Positions 1 to 62,464 of a stretch of DNA of 62,464 bases are shown here, in pieces. Source of the stretch: Anaerolineaceae bacterium (lineage in GTDB: Bacteria > Chloroflexota > Anaerolineae > Anaerolineales > Anaerolineaceae); assembly GCA_029975475.1 (NCBI GenBank), contig JARKPB010000020.1, positions 1-62,464 on the forward strand, given 5' to 3'. Each line of letters starts with the position of its first letter. Position 1 is the stretch's first letter. Position numbers and translations under genes: made by a program. Under the pieces are notes generated by a model. The model searched no databases, was not told the origin of the DNA, and saw nothing but the letters and a program-made list of their open reading frames with translations.

Positions 1-180
1 AAAGCGCTGCAGCACCTTTTCCAGCACGGAGGGGGCGAACTCTTCCACCCGGATCACCTTGAGCGCCACCTCGCGCTCCAGGGTGGTGTCCAGCGCCCTG
101 TACACCGCGGCCATGCCGCCCTGGCCAATGGGCTCAATCACATGATAGCGGCCGATGTCTTTTCCGCTCAGGTCTGGCAT
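1..180 (-). CDS. Serine/threonine protein kinase, N-terminus only (cut by window edge)
   Basis: The 60 codons visible read from ATG at 180 toward the window start and remain open. They begin MPDLSGKDIGRYHVIEPIGQ, followed by the glycine-rich nucleotide loop GQGGMAAVY (about residues 19-27). The invariant ATP-binding lysine follows in VALKVI (about residue 45). This is the N-lobe of a Hanks-type (PknB-like) kinase, which phosphorylates Ser/Thr on protein substrates at the membrane or in the cytoplasm. A purine-rich GGGGGG lies 4 nt before the ATG, and a TATAAT lies at 215-220 on the minus strand. It is divergent from recA. The C-terminal sensor or effector part is outside the window, so the subtype cannot be told. 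Confidence 0.85.
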   Translation of the reverse strand, partial: MPDLSGKDIGRYHVIEPIGQGGMAAVYRALDTTLEREVALKVIRVEEFAPSVLEKVLQRF

Positions 181-58543: not shown

Positions 58544-59413
58544 CTACGGCCGGTAAGCGCAGCGGAATCCGCTGGCGCTGCCGAGAAGATCCGGGAAAGT
58601 CCTGAGGCGGCCGGAAACCCGCAGATAAGCCGGTTCGTTGTACCAGGAGCCGCCGCGAAGCACGCGGTACCCGCCGCCCTGCGGGCCGGGTGGGTTGCGA
58701 GATGGAGCGCTCTCATAATAATCTCCACTGTACCAGTCAGCCGCCCATTCCCAGACGTTACCGGCCATATCTTCGGCTCCGTACGGGCTGGCTCCCTCCG
58801 GGTAGCTGCCGACCCTGACCGTGTCTGCGGCCAGGAAATTTGCCAGGCTGCTGGTCGGAGCCTGATCCCCCCACGGGTACAGGCGCCCGTCTGTGCCGCG
58901 CGCCGCCTTCTCCCACTGCGCCTCGGTGGGCAGACCTTCCCCGGCCCAGGCGCAGTAGGCGCTGGCCTGGTTCCAGTCCACGTAAACCACCGGGAAATCT
59001 GCAAAAGCCGCCTGGCGGTAGTAGCTGCCGCGGGAGAAGGAGCGTTCCTCTCTGGGCGGGGTGCAGCCGCCGGCGCTGACGCACCGCTGATACTGGGCGT
59101 TGGTCACCTCAAAGCGGTCGATCCAGTAAGCGTCCAGATAAACCTGCCGCCCGGGCTTCTCGCCGGGTTCCGCGCCAGGGTCACCCTCCGCCGCGCCCAT
59201 CCAGAACTCGCCCGCCGGCACGCAGACCATCTCCCCGCCGTCAGCCGGGTTGACCCAGCGCTGGCCCGCCCGGGCACATTCATCTGCGCCGCCGGGGGTG
59301 AGCTGAGGATCGTCCCGGGGAGAAAGCGGTTCTGCGGCCGCGCCGCAGCCGGCGGTCAGCAGGACAGTCCAGCAGAAAGAGAGGATGAGCAGGGTAAAGC
59401 GGGATAGTTTCAT
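58544..59413 (-). CDS. FGE/SUMF1-fold lipoprotein, paralogue of the DGR target
   Basis: A 289-residue lipoprotein with lipobox TAGC (Cys about 23). The FGE-sulfatase (SUMF1) fold begins WVNPADGGEMVCVPAGEFWM and includes RFEVTN, PWGDQAP, EDMAGNVWEWAADWYSG and RGGSWYNEP. The catalytic Cys pair of true FGE near RGGSW is absent, so it is a binding scaffold (C-type lectin fold) rather than an oxidase. It shares long near-identical coding stretches with the DGR target at the right end of the window. Its C-terminal segment aligns with the template repeat by residue but has many non-adenine changes, so it is not a current target. An ext -10 lies at 59483-59491. Confidence 0.9.
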   Translation of the reverse strand: MKLSRFTLLILSFCWTVLLTAGCGAAAEPLSPRDDPQLTPGGADECARAGQRWVNPADGGEMVCVPAGEFWMGAAEGDPGAEPGEKPGRQVYLDAYWIDRFEVTNAQYQRCVSAGGCTPPREERSFSRGSYYRQAAFADFPVVYVDWNQASAYCAWAGEGLPTEAQWEKAARGTDGRLYPWGDQAPTSSLANFLAADTVRVGSYPEGASPYGAEDMAGNVWEWAADWYSGDYYESAPSRNPPGPQGGGYRVLRGGSWYNEPAYLRVSGRLRTFPDLLGSASGFRCAYRP

Positions 59414-59718: not shown

Positions 59719-59832
59719 TGCGATAGGGAACAGCGGAACCCGTTGTTGTTCCTTGTGTTGTCGGGATTGTTCCTGTTGCGGTTAGATGACCGCAGGTTCC
59801 TCGCTTCATTGTTCCAGGACCCGCCGCGTTCT
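59719..59832 (-). repeat. DGR template repeat (TR)
   Basis: A 114-nt noncoding copy of the 3' end of the target gene, read on the minus strand. In the target frame it would give RGGSWNNEARNLRSS and then Asn-rich residues, with AAC or AAT at most positions that vary. It matches 61342-61455 with 25 differences, all at adenines of the template strand (about 36 adenines in total, hand count). It begins 13 nt downstream of the avd stop. Left and right borders are set where the first non-adenine mismatches occur. Confidence 0.93.
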
Positions 59833-59845
59833 CTCCCCAGCGCCC

Positions 59846-60217
59846 CTACACACAGAAATTACTTTCTGATTGTGCCGCCTTTGCTTTGTTCATCCAACCA
59901 CCCAGCAGCTTTCCTACCTCTATTACCAGGCGACTGATATGCTCATACTGAGAAATGCTGATCCATGAGCGGGCAAAGCACAGCCGCAGATAAAACCGTA
60001 ATTTATCTAATTCTATGTCTGCCAGAATTAATTCCTGGCGATGATTATCCCTGTCCCGGACCGCCTTAAGAAGGTATTCATGGAATAAAAAAACGGAATC
60101 TTCTAATCGCCGGGCTAGCCGGAACCGCTCATGCTTCGGAAACTTATCACAGTATCCCAACAGGCAAATAGATAAATCATAGGTTTTTGTAAATATCGGG
60201 GATTCAGTTGGGTGCAT
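59846..60217 (-). CDS. avd: DGR accessory variability determinant (Avd-like)
   Basis: A 123-residue helical protein. Helices around TKTYDLSICLLGYCDKFPKH, RRLEDSVFLFHEYLLKAV and LRFYLRLCFARSWISISQYE fit the four-helix-bundle (S23-like) Avd family. Avd forms a basic pentamer that binds the reverse transcriptase and the template RNA and is required for mutagenic cDNA synthesis. The start lies within the last 14 nt of the RT gene. It ends 13 nt before the template repeat. This gene and the RT gene look more AT-rich than their neighbours, consistent with horizontal transfer. Confidence 0.9.
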   Translation of the reverse strand: MHPTESPIFTKTYDLSICLLGYCDKFPKHERFRLARRLEDSVFLFHEYLLKAVRDRDNHRQELILADIELDKLRFYLRLCFARSWISISQYEHISRLVIEVGKLLGGWMNKAKAAQSESNFCV

Positions 60218-61268
60218 GGGTTATCCGTATCGCCGGAAGCAAACTGACCAGTCTTTCTCTTAAACCAAATGTGTCACCAAATTGAGCGTGACCAATCCAT
60301 CCCCGCAGCGATAAAGAGAGCGTTTCCAACGTGGCGTCTCCATGATTAACCGCCGCGGCGATGTGCAGCAGGCGGGACCTGGCGCGTAATGCGTTTCGGC
60401 GTTTCAACCTGCGAAAGTCGGGATAGACTTGAAAGCCCAAAAACCCTACCCCGTGGCTGGAGGGATATACCTGCGCTCTTTCCAGGTGCAATTTCAAGCG
60501 CAGAGGTTCCAAACATCTTATAATCTCATTCAACCAGACTTGTAATTGATGTTTCGAATTTGAAAACAGCAGCATGTCATCCACATAGCGGACATATCCC
60601 CGGCAGCCCAGGGTTCTCTTAATGAAATGGTCAAAATCATTCAGATAAACGTTAGCCCAAAATTGACTTGTGAGGTTGCCTATCGGCAATCCCCTCGGCC
60701 GTAAACAGGATAACAGATCATCACCCGCAAAGAATAGATTTTGACCTTTAGCCGTGTGGATGCCAGCTCCTCCGTCAATGATTTGGCCTGCCAGGTGCAG
60801 GATGCGTGGTTCATGAATAGTTTTTCTCAATATATCCTTCAGGATTTGATGGTCAATACTTGGGAAAAACTGTTCGACATCCAGGAACAGGAAATACCCA
60901 AACCGCCTCAGGTATTGAGTGCAACGTGCAATCGCGGCATGGGTTCCTTTACCGACCCGATTGGCATAGGTATCAAAAATGAACTTCCGCTCATATACTG
61001 GCTCCAGTTGACGAACAAGCGCATGATGAACCACTCGATCGCGAAAAGGTGCCGCTGAAATTAAGCGCCGCTTGGCTTCGCGCACATAAAAATTCCTGTA
61101 CGTTCCGGGATAGTAAGCACCGCCGCGCAATTCATCCTGAAGGAAAATTAAGTTGTCCACCAGACGCAATTCAAAATCAGCCACTTCAGGCTGGCTGCGT
61201 TTCCCCCTGGCGGCCTTTCGATAAGAAAGCCACAAATTCTCAAATGAAGTCAATTCCTCCCAATCCAT
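60204..61268 (-). CDS. DGR reverse transcriptase
   Basis: A 354-residue reverse transcriptase. Motif A Asp is in FLFLDVEQFFPSIDH (Asp130). Motif B reads GLPIGNLTSQFWANVY (residues 193-208), where IGxxxSQ is the diagnostic DGR variant of the QGxxxSP found in retrons and group II introns. Motif C is YVRYVDDMLLF (YVDD at 228-231). There is no maturase or endonuclease domain. It copies the template RNA into cDNA with frequent adenine misincorporation. The ATG follows GGAAAGGG. It lies 66 nt after the target gene stop and overlaps avd by 14 nt. Confidence 0.96.
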   Translation of the reverse strand: MDWEELTSFENLWLSYRKAARGKRSQPEVADFELRLVDNLIFLQDELRGGAYYPGTYRNFYVREAKRRLISAAPFRDRVVHHALVRQLEPVYERKFIFDTYANRVGKGTHAAIARCTQYLRRFGYFLFLDVEQFFPSIDHQILKDILRKTIHEPRILHLAGQIIDGGAGIHTAKGQNLFFAGDDLLSCLRPRGLPIGNLTSQFWANVYLNDFDHFIKRTLGCRGYVRYVDDMLLFSNSKHQLQVWLNEIIRCLEPLRLKLHLERAQVYPSSHGVGFLGFQVYPDFRRLKRRNALRARSRLLHIAAAVNHGDATLETLSLSLRGWIGHAQFGDTFGLRERLVSLLPAIRITHAPN

Positions 61269-61279
61269 TTTTCCCTTTC

Positions 61280-61300
61280 CTGGGGGGCTCCGCCCCCCAG
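61280..61300. other. GC-rich hairpin downstream of the variable repeat
   Basis: CTGGGGGGC and GCCCCCCAG pair perfectly over 9 bp with a 3-nt loop. It lies 42 nt past the end of the variable repeat, between the target stop and the RT start. Bordetella phage DGRs need a similar DNA hairpin just downstream of the target for efficient homing. No T tract follows on either strand, so it is not a standard terminator. Confidence 0.65.
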
Positions 61301-61334
61301 ACCCCCCTGCAGAATTTCAGAAGCCAGAAGCCAG

Positions 61335-62464
61335 CTACCGGGGCGAGAGGGAACAGCGGAACCCGTCGTTGAACCAAGTGAAGTCGGGATAGAGCCAGGA
61401 GCGGTAAGACGACCGCAGGTTCCACGCAGCATAGCTCCAGGACCCGCCGCGAACCACGCGGTACTCACCGCTCTCCGGCCCGGTTGGATTGCGCGGCGGG
61501 GCAACCTGGTAATAACCCGCGCTGTACCAGTCCGCAACCCACTCCCACACGTTCCCGGCCATGTCCTCCGCCCCGTACGGGCTGGCTCCAGCCGGGTAGC
61601 TGCCTACCGCGACTGTGTCATTCAAATTTTGATCGTAATTTGCCAGGCTGGCAGCCGTAGCCTGGTTCCCCCACGGATACACCCGCCCGTCTGTGCCGCG
61701 CGCGGCTTTCTCCCACTGCGCCTCGCTGGGCAGATCTTCCCCGACCCAGGCACAGTAAGCCCTGGCATCGTTCCATGAAACGTTCACCACCGGGTGGTCC
61801 TCTCGCCCAGCCGTGCCGCTGCCCGGCCCTTTCGGAGCGGACCACTTCGCGCCGCTCACCTGCTCCCAGGATGATCCCGTATAAACATAACTCCAACCCG
61901 CTTTTTCAGCATCAGTGATGTAACCCGTGCTTGTCACAAATTCGGCAAACTGGCGGTTGGTCACTTCAAAGCGGTCGATCCAGTAGGCGTCCAGATAAAC
62001 CTGCCGCCCAGGCCTTTCATCATCCAGCGCCTGGCTGTCGCCACTCGCCGCGCCCATCCAAAACTCACCCGCCGGCACGCAGACCATCTCCCCGCCGTCT
62101 GCCGGGTTGACCCAGTGCTGGCCTACTTCCGTGCAAGCAGGAGGAATATTGGGATCCAGCGTTGGATCCATCAACGTCGGTGGCGCGAAGGTCGCAGTTT
62201 CCGTCGGCCGCAGGAACACGTTCGGTGCTGCAGTTTCCGTCGGCCCGGGTACCATTGAACTGTTCCGCGTGAGCAGGATGATCAACACGATCCCGGCCAG
62301 CGCTGCCCCCGCCAGCCCAACAAATAGCCGCGGGCGGCGCCGGGGTTTCAACGCCTGCGGTAGGCCCGGCGGGACTGGCAGCGGCGCGGCCGTCGCCTCG
62401 ACGTTCACCGTTCTGGTTTCCGGCGCGTGTTCCTCTCCCTCCGGCTTTTCCGCCCGCTTCAACC
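61335..62464 (-). CDS. DGR target: membrane-anchored FGE-fold (C-type lectin) protein, 5' end outside window
   Basis: The visible 376 codons are open to the window edge; a TTG at 62462 is in frame but is too close to the edge to judge as a start. A basic Pro-rich segment leads to one membrane helix (LFVGLAGAALAGIVLIILL, about residues 46-64 from that TTG). A Pro/Thr linker and an FGE/SUMF1 domain (PAGEFWMGAASGD, RFEVTNRQF, EDMAGNVWEWVADWYS) follow. The protein ends in the variable repeat (about the last 38 residues). The catalytic Cys of FGE is absent, so the fold displays a variable ligand-binding face. The upstream part may include a kinase or other cytoplasmic domain. Confidence 0.9.
   Translation of the reverse strand, partial: LKRAEKPEGEEHAPETRTVNVEATAAPLPVPPGLPQALKPRRRPRLFVGLAGAALAGIVLIILLTRNSSMVPGPTETAAPNVFLRPTETATFAPPTLMDPTLDPNIPPACTEVGQHWVNPADGGEMVCVPAGEFWMGAASGDSQALDDERPGRQVYLDAYWIDRFEVTNRQFAEFVTSTGYITDAEKAGWSYVYTGSSWEQVSGAKWSAPKGPGSGTAGREDHPVVNVSWNDARAYCAWVGEDLPSEAQWEKAARGTDGRVYPWGNQATAASLANYDQNLNDTVAVGSYPAGASPYGAEDMAGNVWEWVADWYSAGYYQVAPPRNPTGPESGEYRVVRGGSWSYAAWNLRSSYRSWLYPDFTWFNDGFRCSLSPR
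61342..61455 (-). repeat. DGR variable repeat (VR) in the target gene
   Basis: A 114-nt copy of the template repeat forming the C-terminus of the target protein. In frame it reads RGGSWSYAAWNLRSSYRSWL and continues to the last residues before the TAG stop. All 25 differences from the template lie at template adenines. Codons AAC and AAT become TAT, TAC, TCC, CTC, TTC and GAC, giving Tyr, Ser, Leu, Phe and Asp at exposed positions of the fold. The stop codon lies just outside the repeat. Confidence 0.93.

Follow-up and report, generated by a model that had tools for sequence, protein, structure and literature searches.

A diversity-generating retroelement with probable receptor-kinase targets in an Anaerolineaceae genome

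We describe a diversity-generating retroelement (DGR) at the right end of contig JARKPB010000020.1 of an Anaerolineaceae bacterium (assembly GCA_029975475.1). The window analyzed is this entire contig (62,464 bases; C11 among the contigs of the genome). Judging from its sequence, the element is a genuine DGR: on the minus strand, between 59.7 and 62.5 kb, the 3' part of a target gene (T1) with its variable repeat (VR) is followed by the reverse transcriptase (RT) gene, the accessory gene avd, and the template repeat (TR) (Table 1). We conclude that this DGR probably is cellular and has two or more targets, including T1 and a second gene, T2, on another contig. Each target would, with good probability, be a single-pass receptor in which an N-terminal cytoplasmic Hanks-type Ser/Thr kinase is joined through a membrane helix to an outer FGE domain diversified by the DGR. 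A first-pass annotation of the window had called the DGR complete; all of its parts are present in the order that it gave, but T1 is truncated by the end of C11 and a second VR lies outside the window.

Table 1. Features of the window that bear on the DGR and its targets
Feature	Position	Strand	Details
Ser/Thr kinase gene start	1-180	-	First 60 codons, exits contig at left end; PF00069 positions 1-41
FGE-fold paralogue	58544-59413	-	Lipobox-like LTAGC (by eye); no VR
TR	59720-59828	-	109 nt, 32 adenines; 81% identity to VR1
avd accessory gene	59846-60217	-	123 aa; overlaps end of RT gene; NF033474 DivGenRetAVD, PF22296 bAvd
DGR reverse transcriptase	60204-61268	-	354 aa; RVT_1 6e-21
Hairpin	61280-61300	-	Perfect 9-bp stem, GGA loop; between VR1 and RT, ∼42 nt from VR
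Target T1, 3' part	61335-62464	-	5' half missing, frame open at contig end
VR1	61343-61451	-	Codons 338-373 of T1, which has 375 readable codons
FGE-sulfatase-fold ectodomain of T1	61353-62090	-	PF03781, E 1.3e-66; VR at C-terminal end
Predicted membrane helix of T1	62271-62327	-	Hydropathy scan; T1 residues 46-64; RRRPR just before

The cassette and its two variable repeats

The TR, both VRs, the RT and avd genes, and the hairpins can be read directly in the DNA. TR and VR1 align without gaps, with mismatches at 21 of the 32 TR adenines and identity at all 77 non-adenine positions; the hypergeometric chance that 21 of 21 differences fall at adenines is 8.5e-15, for a stretch preselected by similarity. 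Adenines occur in 19 TR codons, of which 11 are AAY, and adenine mutation yields a stop in none of them. The TR could in theory encode ∼1.9e16 protein sequences over a varied stretch of 36 residues, which ends two residues before the C terminus of a C-type-lectin-type target. The 3' stretch of VR1, at about 61343 to 61366, is nearly constant and is presumably the initiation of mutagenic homology (IMH). Only position 61347 in it departs from the TR, by an A-to-C change that VR1 and VR2 share; this change is thus better seen as a fixed difference between IMH and its TR counterpart, IMH*, than as a random mutation; the count of 21 includes this position. Among the 60 DGR loci scanned, 48 have adenine-biased repeat pairs, and the same rule applied to T, G, and C picks out 9, 6, and 0. 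An Rfam search of the window gave zero matches at the gathering score.

When the genome was searched with the TR, one further good match was found, VR2 at C4:855-965 (L029), in an FGE gene (T2) that begins at the edge of contig C4. With a 2-base gap placed in the TR, all 20 differences between TR and VR2 are at A. Each VR is followed by an inverted repeat: the hairpin CTGGGGGGCGGAGCCCCCCAG occurs at two places in the readable genome (≤2 mismatches), one after each VR, and a reversed-pattern control gave 0.

The RT carries intact RGLPIGNLTSQF and YVRYVDD motifs (IGNLTSQ and YVDD), as the first-pass annotation had reported for a DGR-type enzyme. Its closest solved structure is 8ub7 (175 bits, 2.6e-50), an entry titled just "Reverse transcriptase" that we take to be the BPP-1 DGR RT; the best group II-type RT reaches 68 bits (8e-18). 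BPP-1 brt matches with 35% identity across 94% of the RT (E 2e-44), and the PHROG reverse transcriptase family matches at 1e-111. The avd product scores 86.6 bits on NF033474 (curated cut-off, 80), which places it among DGR accessory proteins; it is also matched by the PHROG family "Avd protein of DGR" and, at 0.004, by 4dwl, described in part of PMC10053308 as BPP-1 Avd.

A retron, DRT, or group II intron RT lying beside a chance repeat would account for the matches to models for such RTs in NCBIfam and PADLOC and for the "retron-type" label that depositors gave to some phage relatives, yet its probability is negligible. The nine NCBIfam RT models listed all score far under cut-off (best, 122 versus 300 bits), and this candidate was rejected; the matches to BPP-1 brt and 8ub7 extend over the length of the RT, which is accompanied by a TR/VR pair and Avd. 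These scores contradict the outcome that the first-pass annotation had named as refuting a DGR, a retron or group II intron RT. The placement of the DNA in a likely Anaerolineae genome by that annotation agrees with the three nearest named RT records, which come from "Anaerolineae" and "Anaerolineales" metagenome-assembled genomes. A viral contig scan with the RT, sensitive to nothing beyond close relatives, bore out 0 of 11 candidates, and the 164 named phage records that match the RT are all at <60% identity (best, 36%).

The targets and their missing front half

The readable T1 open reading frame (61335-62462, 375 aa) holds a linker, an RRRPR motif, one predicted helix, and a C-terminal FGE domain, in agreement with the membrane-anchored target described previously. 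FGE folds are C-type-lectin-like. By the positive-inside rule the N-side of the helix lies inside, and RRRPR just before it would thus place the predicted kinase side in and the FGE domain out. The active-site cysteine pair of 5nxl, presumably an actinobacterial FGE, falls in the VR-aligned stretch and is absent from T1, so that a binding rather than a catalytic role of the T1 domain is likely. In sequence, this domain is nearer to FGE enzymes (5nxl and 6s07) than to Treponema denticola variable protein 1 (2y3c; E 9e-12), which we take to be a DGR variable protein and which, unlike the proposed T1, is without a kinase. The depositors' label of 5nxl, "protein kinase," was not used as kinase evidence; 5nxl aligns with FGEs.

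The front half of T1, ∼240 residues judging by a relative, L166, whose helix is at residue 348, is missing, and neither target fragment contains an in-frame ATG ahead of its helix. The kinase model matches 14 places in the genome, two of which are the left ends of contigs C10 and C11, where kinase N termini leave the contig. The first 141 bases of these two ends are identical and code part of the kinase N terminus; the start of C4 and the end of C11 likewise have exactly 141 bases in common, coding the same pre-helix linker. Two such paired forks are expected if two genes have one identical, unresolved middle. When all contig ends were compared, with ends reading as N set aside, every readable overlapping pair shared 141 bases; the others are C10R/C18R, C4R/C5R, C16L/C16R, C19L/C5L, and C19L/C3L (L and R, left and right ends). 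The simplest path would run from C10 through the shared segment to the right end of C11 (T1) and from the left end of C11 through the shared segment to the left end of C4 (T2). By this graph logic the kinase start at positions 1 to 180 would be the 5' end of T2, a gene that finishes on C4. At each of its two readable ends, the half that T1 and T2 share is identical between them, whereas the FGE halves differ. C11 carries recA (332-1423, divergent from the left-end kinase fragment) and is thus chromosomal, which makes a join of its two ends unlikely; C11 alone as a circular replicon was rejected on this ground.

The missing half of T1 is therefore most likely a cytoplasmic Ser/Thr kinase, in which case the varied domain would serve a signaling receptor as its sensor. 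Of the surface receptor proposed in the first-pass annotation, the membrane-anchored FGE protein stands; the target would not be simply a binding protein. The RT-Avd complex would reverse transcribe TR RNA with errors at adenines, and the cDNA would replace the VR, with the hairpin and the constant 3' end of the VR as guides. Binding of ligand by the varied FGE face would change kinase output, so that cells could test new recognition specificities while the signaling half stays constant.

Relatives show the proposed architecture in single polypeptides. Kinase, helix, and FGE domain are joined in L072, in L166, and in a paralogue on contig C16 of the same genome (703 aa in one frame; hydropathy helix, 384-402); the genome G309 encodes a 651-aa kinase-helix-FGE protein in one frame. 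TR searches found no VR in the C16 paralogue or in G309; in G315, a TR search hit the TRs that belong to its other DGRs, plus one additional weak place. In G321, a genome of the same family, two kinase-TM-FGE genes (TM, transmembrane helix) with VRs and an RT-avd-TR cassette lie within 8 kb; one of the two genes is 5'-cut by our choice of stretch. Mismatches of these VRs are at A in 22 of 22 and 19 of 20 cases. A third G321 kinase gene, between the two targets, has no FGE match.

Several observations weigh against the receptor-kinase reading. The kinase-FGE junction of T1 lies in a segment absent from the readable assembly, and the kinase fragments are just 60 aa long and score 22.6 bits, under the Pfam curated cut-off. 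Codons GTG and TTG (TTG at the extreme edge and at codon 38, GTG at codon 19) make a shorter start formally possible. NTPase fusions make up 34 of the 41 labeled rows of related DGR targets and are mostly NACHT by a profile made for this analysis. An AlphaFold model of the FGE ectodomain, from an eight-row alignment, was poor (pLDDT 55.4; VR <40). The 2-base insertion shifts the T2 frame within VR2, with loss of the conserved GFRC end; T2 may be inactive or misassembled, and the insertion could be a real retrohoming error or an assembly fault. Finally, variation of VR1 at this locus is a prediction from sequence.

Three alternatives draw on these points. The DGR might diversify a short, kinase-less adhesin or receptor anchored in the membrane, and the kinase fragments, which lie at other contig ends, would then belong to unrelated genes. 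The readable T1, with its linker, helix, FGE domain, and GTG/TTG starts, would suit such a protein, as would the statement in part of a global survey (Roux et al. 2021, PMC8144416) that most cellular DGR targets are membrane-anchored binding proteins. We consider it quite unlikely in view of the paired 141-base forks, the absence of ATG before the helix, and the kinase-TM-FGE genes of a relative, which carry VRs. The missing effector could instead be another signaling domain, such as TIR: three related loci (L076, L082, and L090) encode TIR, helix, and FGE beside the RT, and their RTs fall in the 12-row clade of the window RT (support only 86/74). The forked contig ends that could be joined to the FGE ends carry the beginning of a kinase, however, and a TIR-type effector seems very improbable. 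A decayed or silent DGR, with its parts intact in sequence, would explain the frameshift in T2 and the long end branch of the RT (0.88). The RT and Avd frames are open, though, with intact RT motifs and a perfect hairpin at both VRs, and zero non-adenine differences between TR and VR1 in 109 bases argue for recent transfer; thus, we regard silence as unlikely.

Distribution, target types, and hairpin loops among relatives

RT relatives at E 1e-40 or better were found in 52 of the 400 genomes searched in the order, this genome included, and their distribution is patchy. The nearest kin of the window RT, L064, L097, and L166, are from the same bacterial family (support of the four-row group, 99/98). 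The tree holds just RTs found by similarity to the window RT and so is no test against retrons or introns. The other Pfam-scanned targets are mostly NACHT- or STAND-type NTPase-FGE proteins, with one KAP-FGE and three TIR-TM-FGE proteins. Receptor-type and NTPase-type labels require 1 change on the RT tree, versus at least 4 (mean, 6.6) in 300 shuffles; this comparison covers 7 receptor-type rows, three labeled solely by a helix before FGE, and 34 NTPase-type rows (a few outside the order), with 40 of 81 rows unlabeled, including L104 (TIR-FGE without a predicted helix). One FGE sensor with kinase, TIR, NACHT, and KAP partners in one order supports the idea that DGR targets work as interchangeable sensors in defense or communication. 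At one locus (L075, 6538-10824), a single 1,429-aa open reading frame has NACHT-like, FGE, and RT regions, the target and RT being apparently fused in frame.

Contig boundaries at related loci fit, indirectly, with population variation, as if assembly had broken on VR variants. Six of 18 hand-picked loci are on contigs that begin inside a VR (L097, L102, L166, L176, L177, and L178). Four of them (L097, L166, L102, and L176) begin in the last 20 to 36 VR bases, three directly after the last variable adenine run. At the remaining 12 loci, the contig start is not inside a VR or no TR match was found. Among the 49 RT matches with known contig extent (the rest were dropped), contig ends lie within 500 bases of the RT on the target side in 7 cases versus 2 on the other side, a difference that is not significant (p 0.18).

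The loop of the window hairpin, GGA, differs from the 4-nt GRNA loop of the BPP-1 type, and we surveyed hairpins with stems of at least 5 bp within 120 nt downstream of VRs. Sixty-six sequences were examined, most from the order, together with named relatives, and 54 of them contain a total of 62 VRs with sufficient flank (L083 and L106 are one contig, counted twice); 62 TRs and 1,240 random windows served as controls. Hairpins with GNA triloops follow 23 of 62 VRs, versus 2 of 62 TRs and 21 of 1,240 random windows, and those with GYNA tetraloops follow 9 of 62 VRs, versus 0 of 62 and 11 of 1,240. The phage consensus, GRNA, was found at 0 of 62 VRs, 0 of 62 TRs, and 12 of 1,240 random windows. 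Counts at VRs, TRs, and random windows were 17, 11, and 190 for other triloops and 11, 19, and 177 for other tetraloops. A GNA or GNNA loop is present at 32 of 62 VRs and neither at 30 of 62, so the loop rule is not universal. The GNA and GYNA loops are a testable departure from the phage prototype in target-site recognition.

Known systems and genomic context

Unlike the BPP-1 DGR, whose target we take to be Mtd, the window DGR is cellular, has the order VR-RT-avd-TR, and has an FGE-fold target. The two have in common RT, Avd, the TR/VR pair, and a hairpin downstream of the VR; in the phage set as given in parts of Guo et al. (2011, PMC3240598), hairpins have a 4-nt GRNA loop at 4 to 34 nt, versus a 3-nt GGA loop at ∼42 nt here.

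Kinase-lectin DGR targets are already published for cyanobacteria, and the window DGR is a new, well-resolved example. Parts of Vallota-Eastman et al. (2020, PMC7517822) describe, in filamentous and colonial cyanobacteria, DGRs with serine/threonine kinase-CLec targets that share with ours an RT, a TR, a C-terminal CLec VR, and paralogous and remote targets within one genome, and that have the N-terminal Hanks-type kinase proposed for ours. Those targets are mostly predicted to be cytosolic, with membrane or secreted cases mentioned, whereas here a single helix would separate the kinase, itself inferred, from the FGE domain, in a different phylum. Targeted hypermutation would thus be tied to a transmembrane signaling receptor outside the cyanobacteria. 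Clade 5 DGRs of multicellular bacteria diversify putative antigen sensors, according to parts of Dore et al. (2024, PMC10907252), where a figure legend includes a protein kinase domain and filamentous Chloroflexi are among the named hosts. Their CLec sensors, combined with TIR effectors and with NTPases of the NACHT/STAND or KAP type, resemble the targets of our relatives in architecture; unlike the NTPase-type targets, the window target is receptor-type. Other DGR papers, likewise consulted in part, deal with diel cyanobacteria (PMC12691664) and with DGRs in immunity (PMC10053308). Open-access searches returned no paper pairing a diversity-generating retroelement with a receptor kinase, an absence that proves little at this scope, and matches for DGRs with Toll-like receptor and transmembrane terms were unrelated by title and abstract.

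By contig-graph logic, an operon with WXG100-like and EspG-like proteins would belong to T1. At C10:203-2125 (L030), the kinase start directly follows two genes on the same strand, across a 22-nt gap with an GGAGGAAAGG stretch: one is EspG-like (9e-4) and the other WXG100-like (1.5e-4), both under Pfam cut-offs. Near the other loci available, no relatives of these proteins turned up, and the type-VII-like link is weak. We tentatively suggest, as a doubtful extension, that two surface Ser/Thr receptor kinases with one identical kinase half have both ectodomain tips rewritten by one DGR, and that the one in this operon could gate a type-VII-like secretion or contact response upon recognition of neighbors or phage; if true, this would be a bacterial counterpart to a receptor kinase that varies somatically. 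Elsewhere in the genome, at C18:154655-155913, a second WXG100 protein is encoded ∼250 bases from another Ser/Thr kinase gene.

The FGE-fold paralogue beside the cassette, unmatched in the TR search of the genome, has mosaic similarity to the two targets. In the first half of the T2 FGE domain, parts are nearer to this lipoprotein paralogue (one block, 59 of 60 bases versus 41 of 60 with T1), and the later part is nearer to T1 (one block, 57 of 60 versus 47 of 60 with the lipoprotein paralogue), a mosaic that suggests recombination among FGE paralogues. C16 (287 kb), the contig with the kinase-TM-FGE paralogue, has the same 141 bases at both ends and may be a separate circular replicon.

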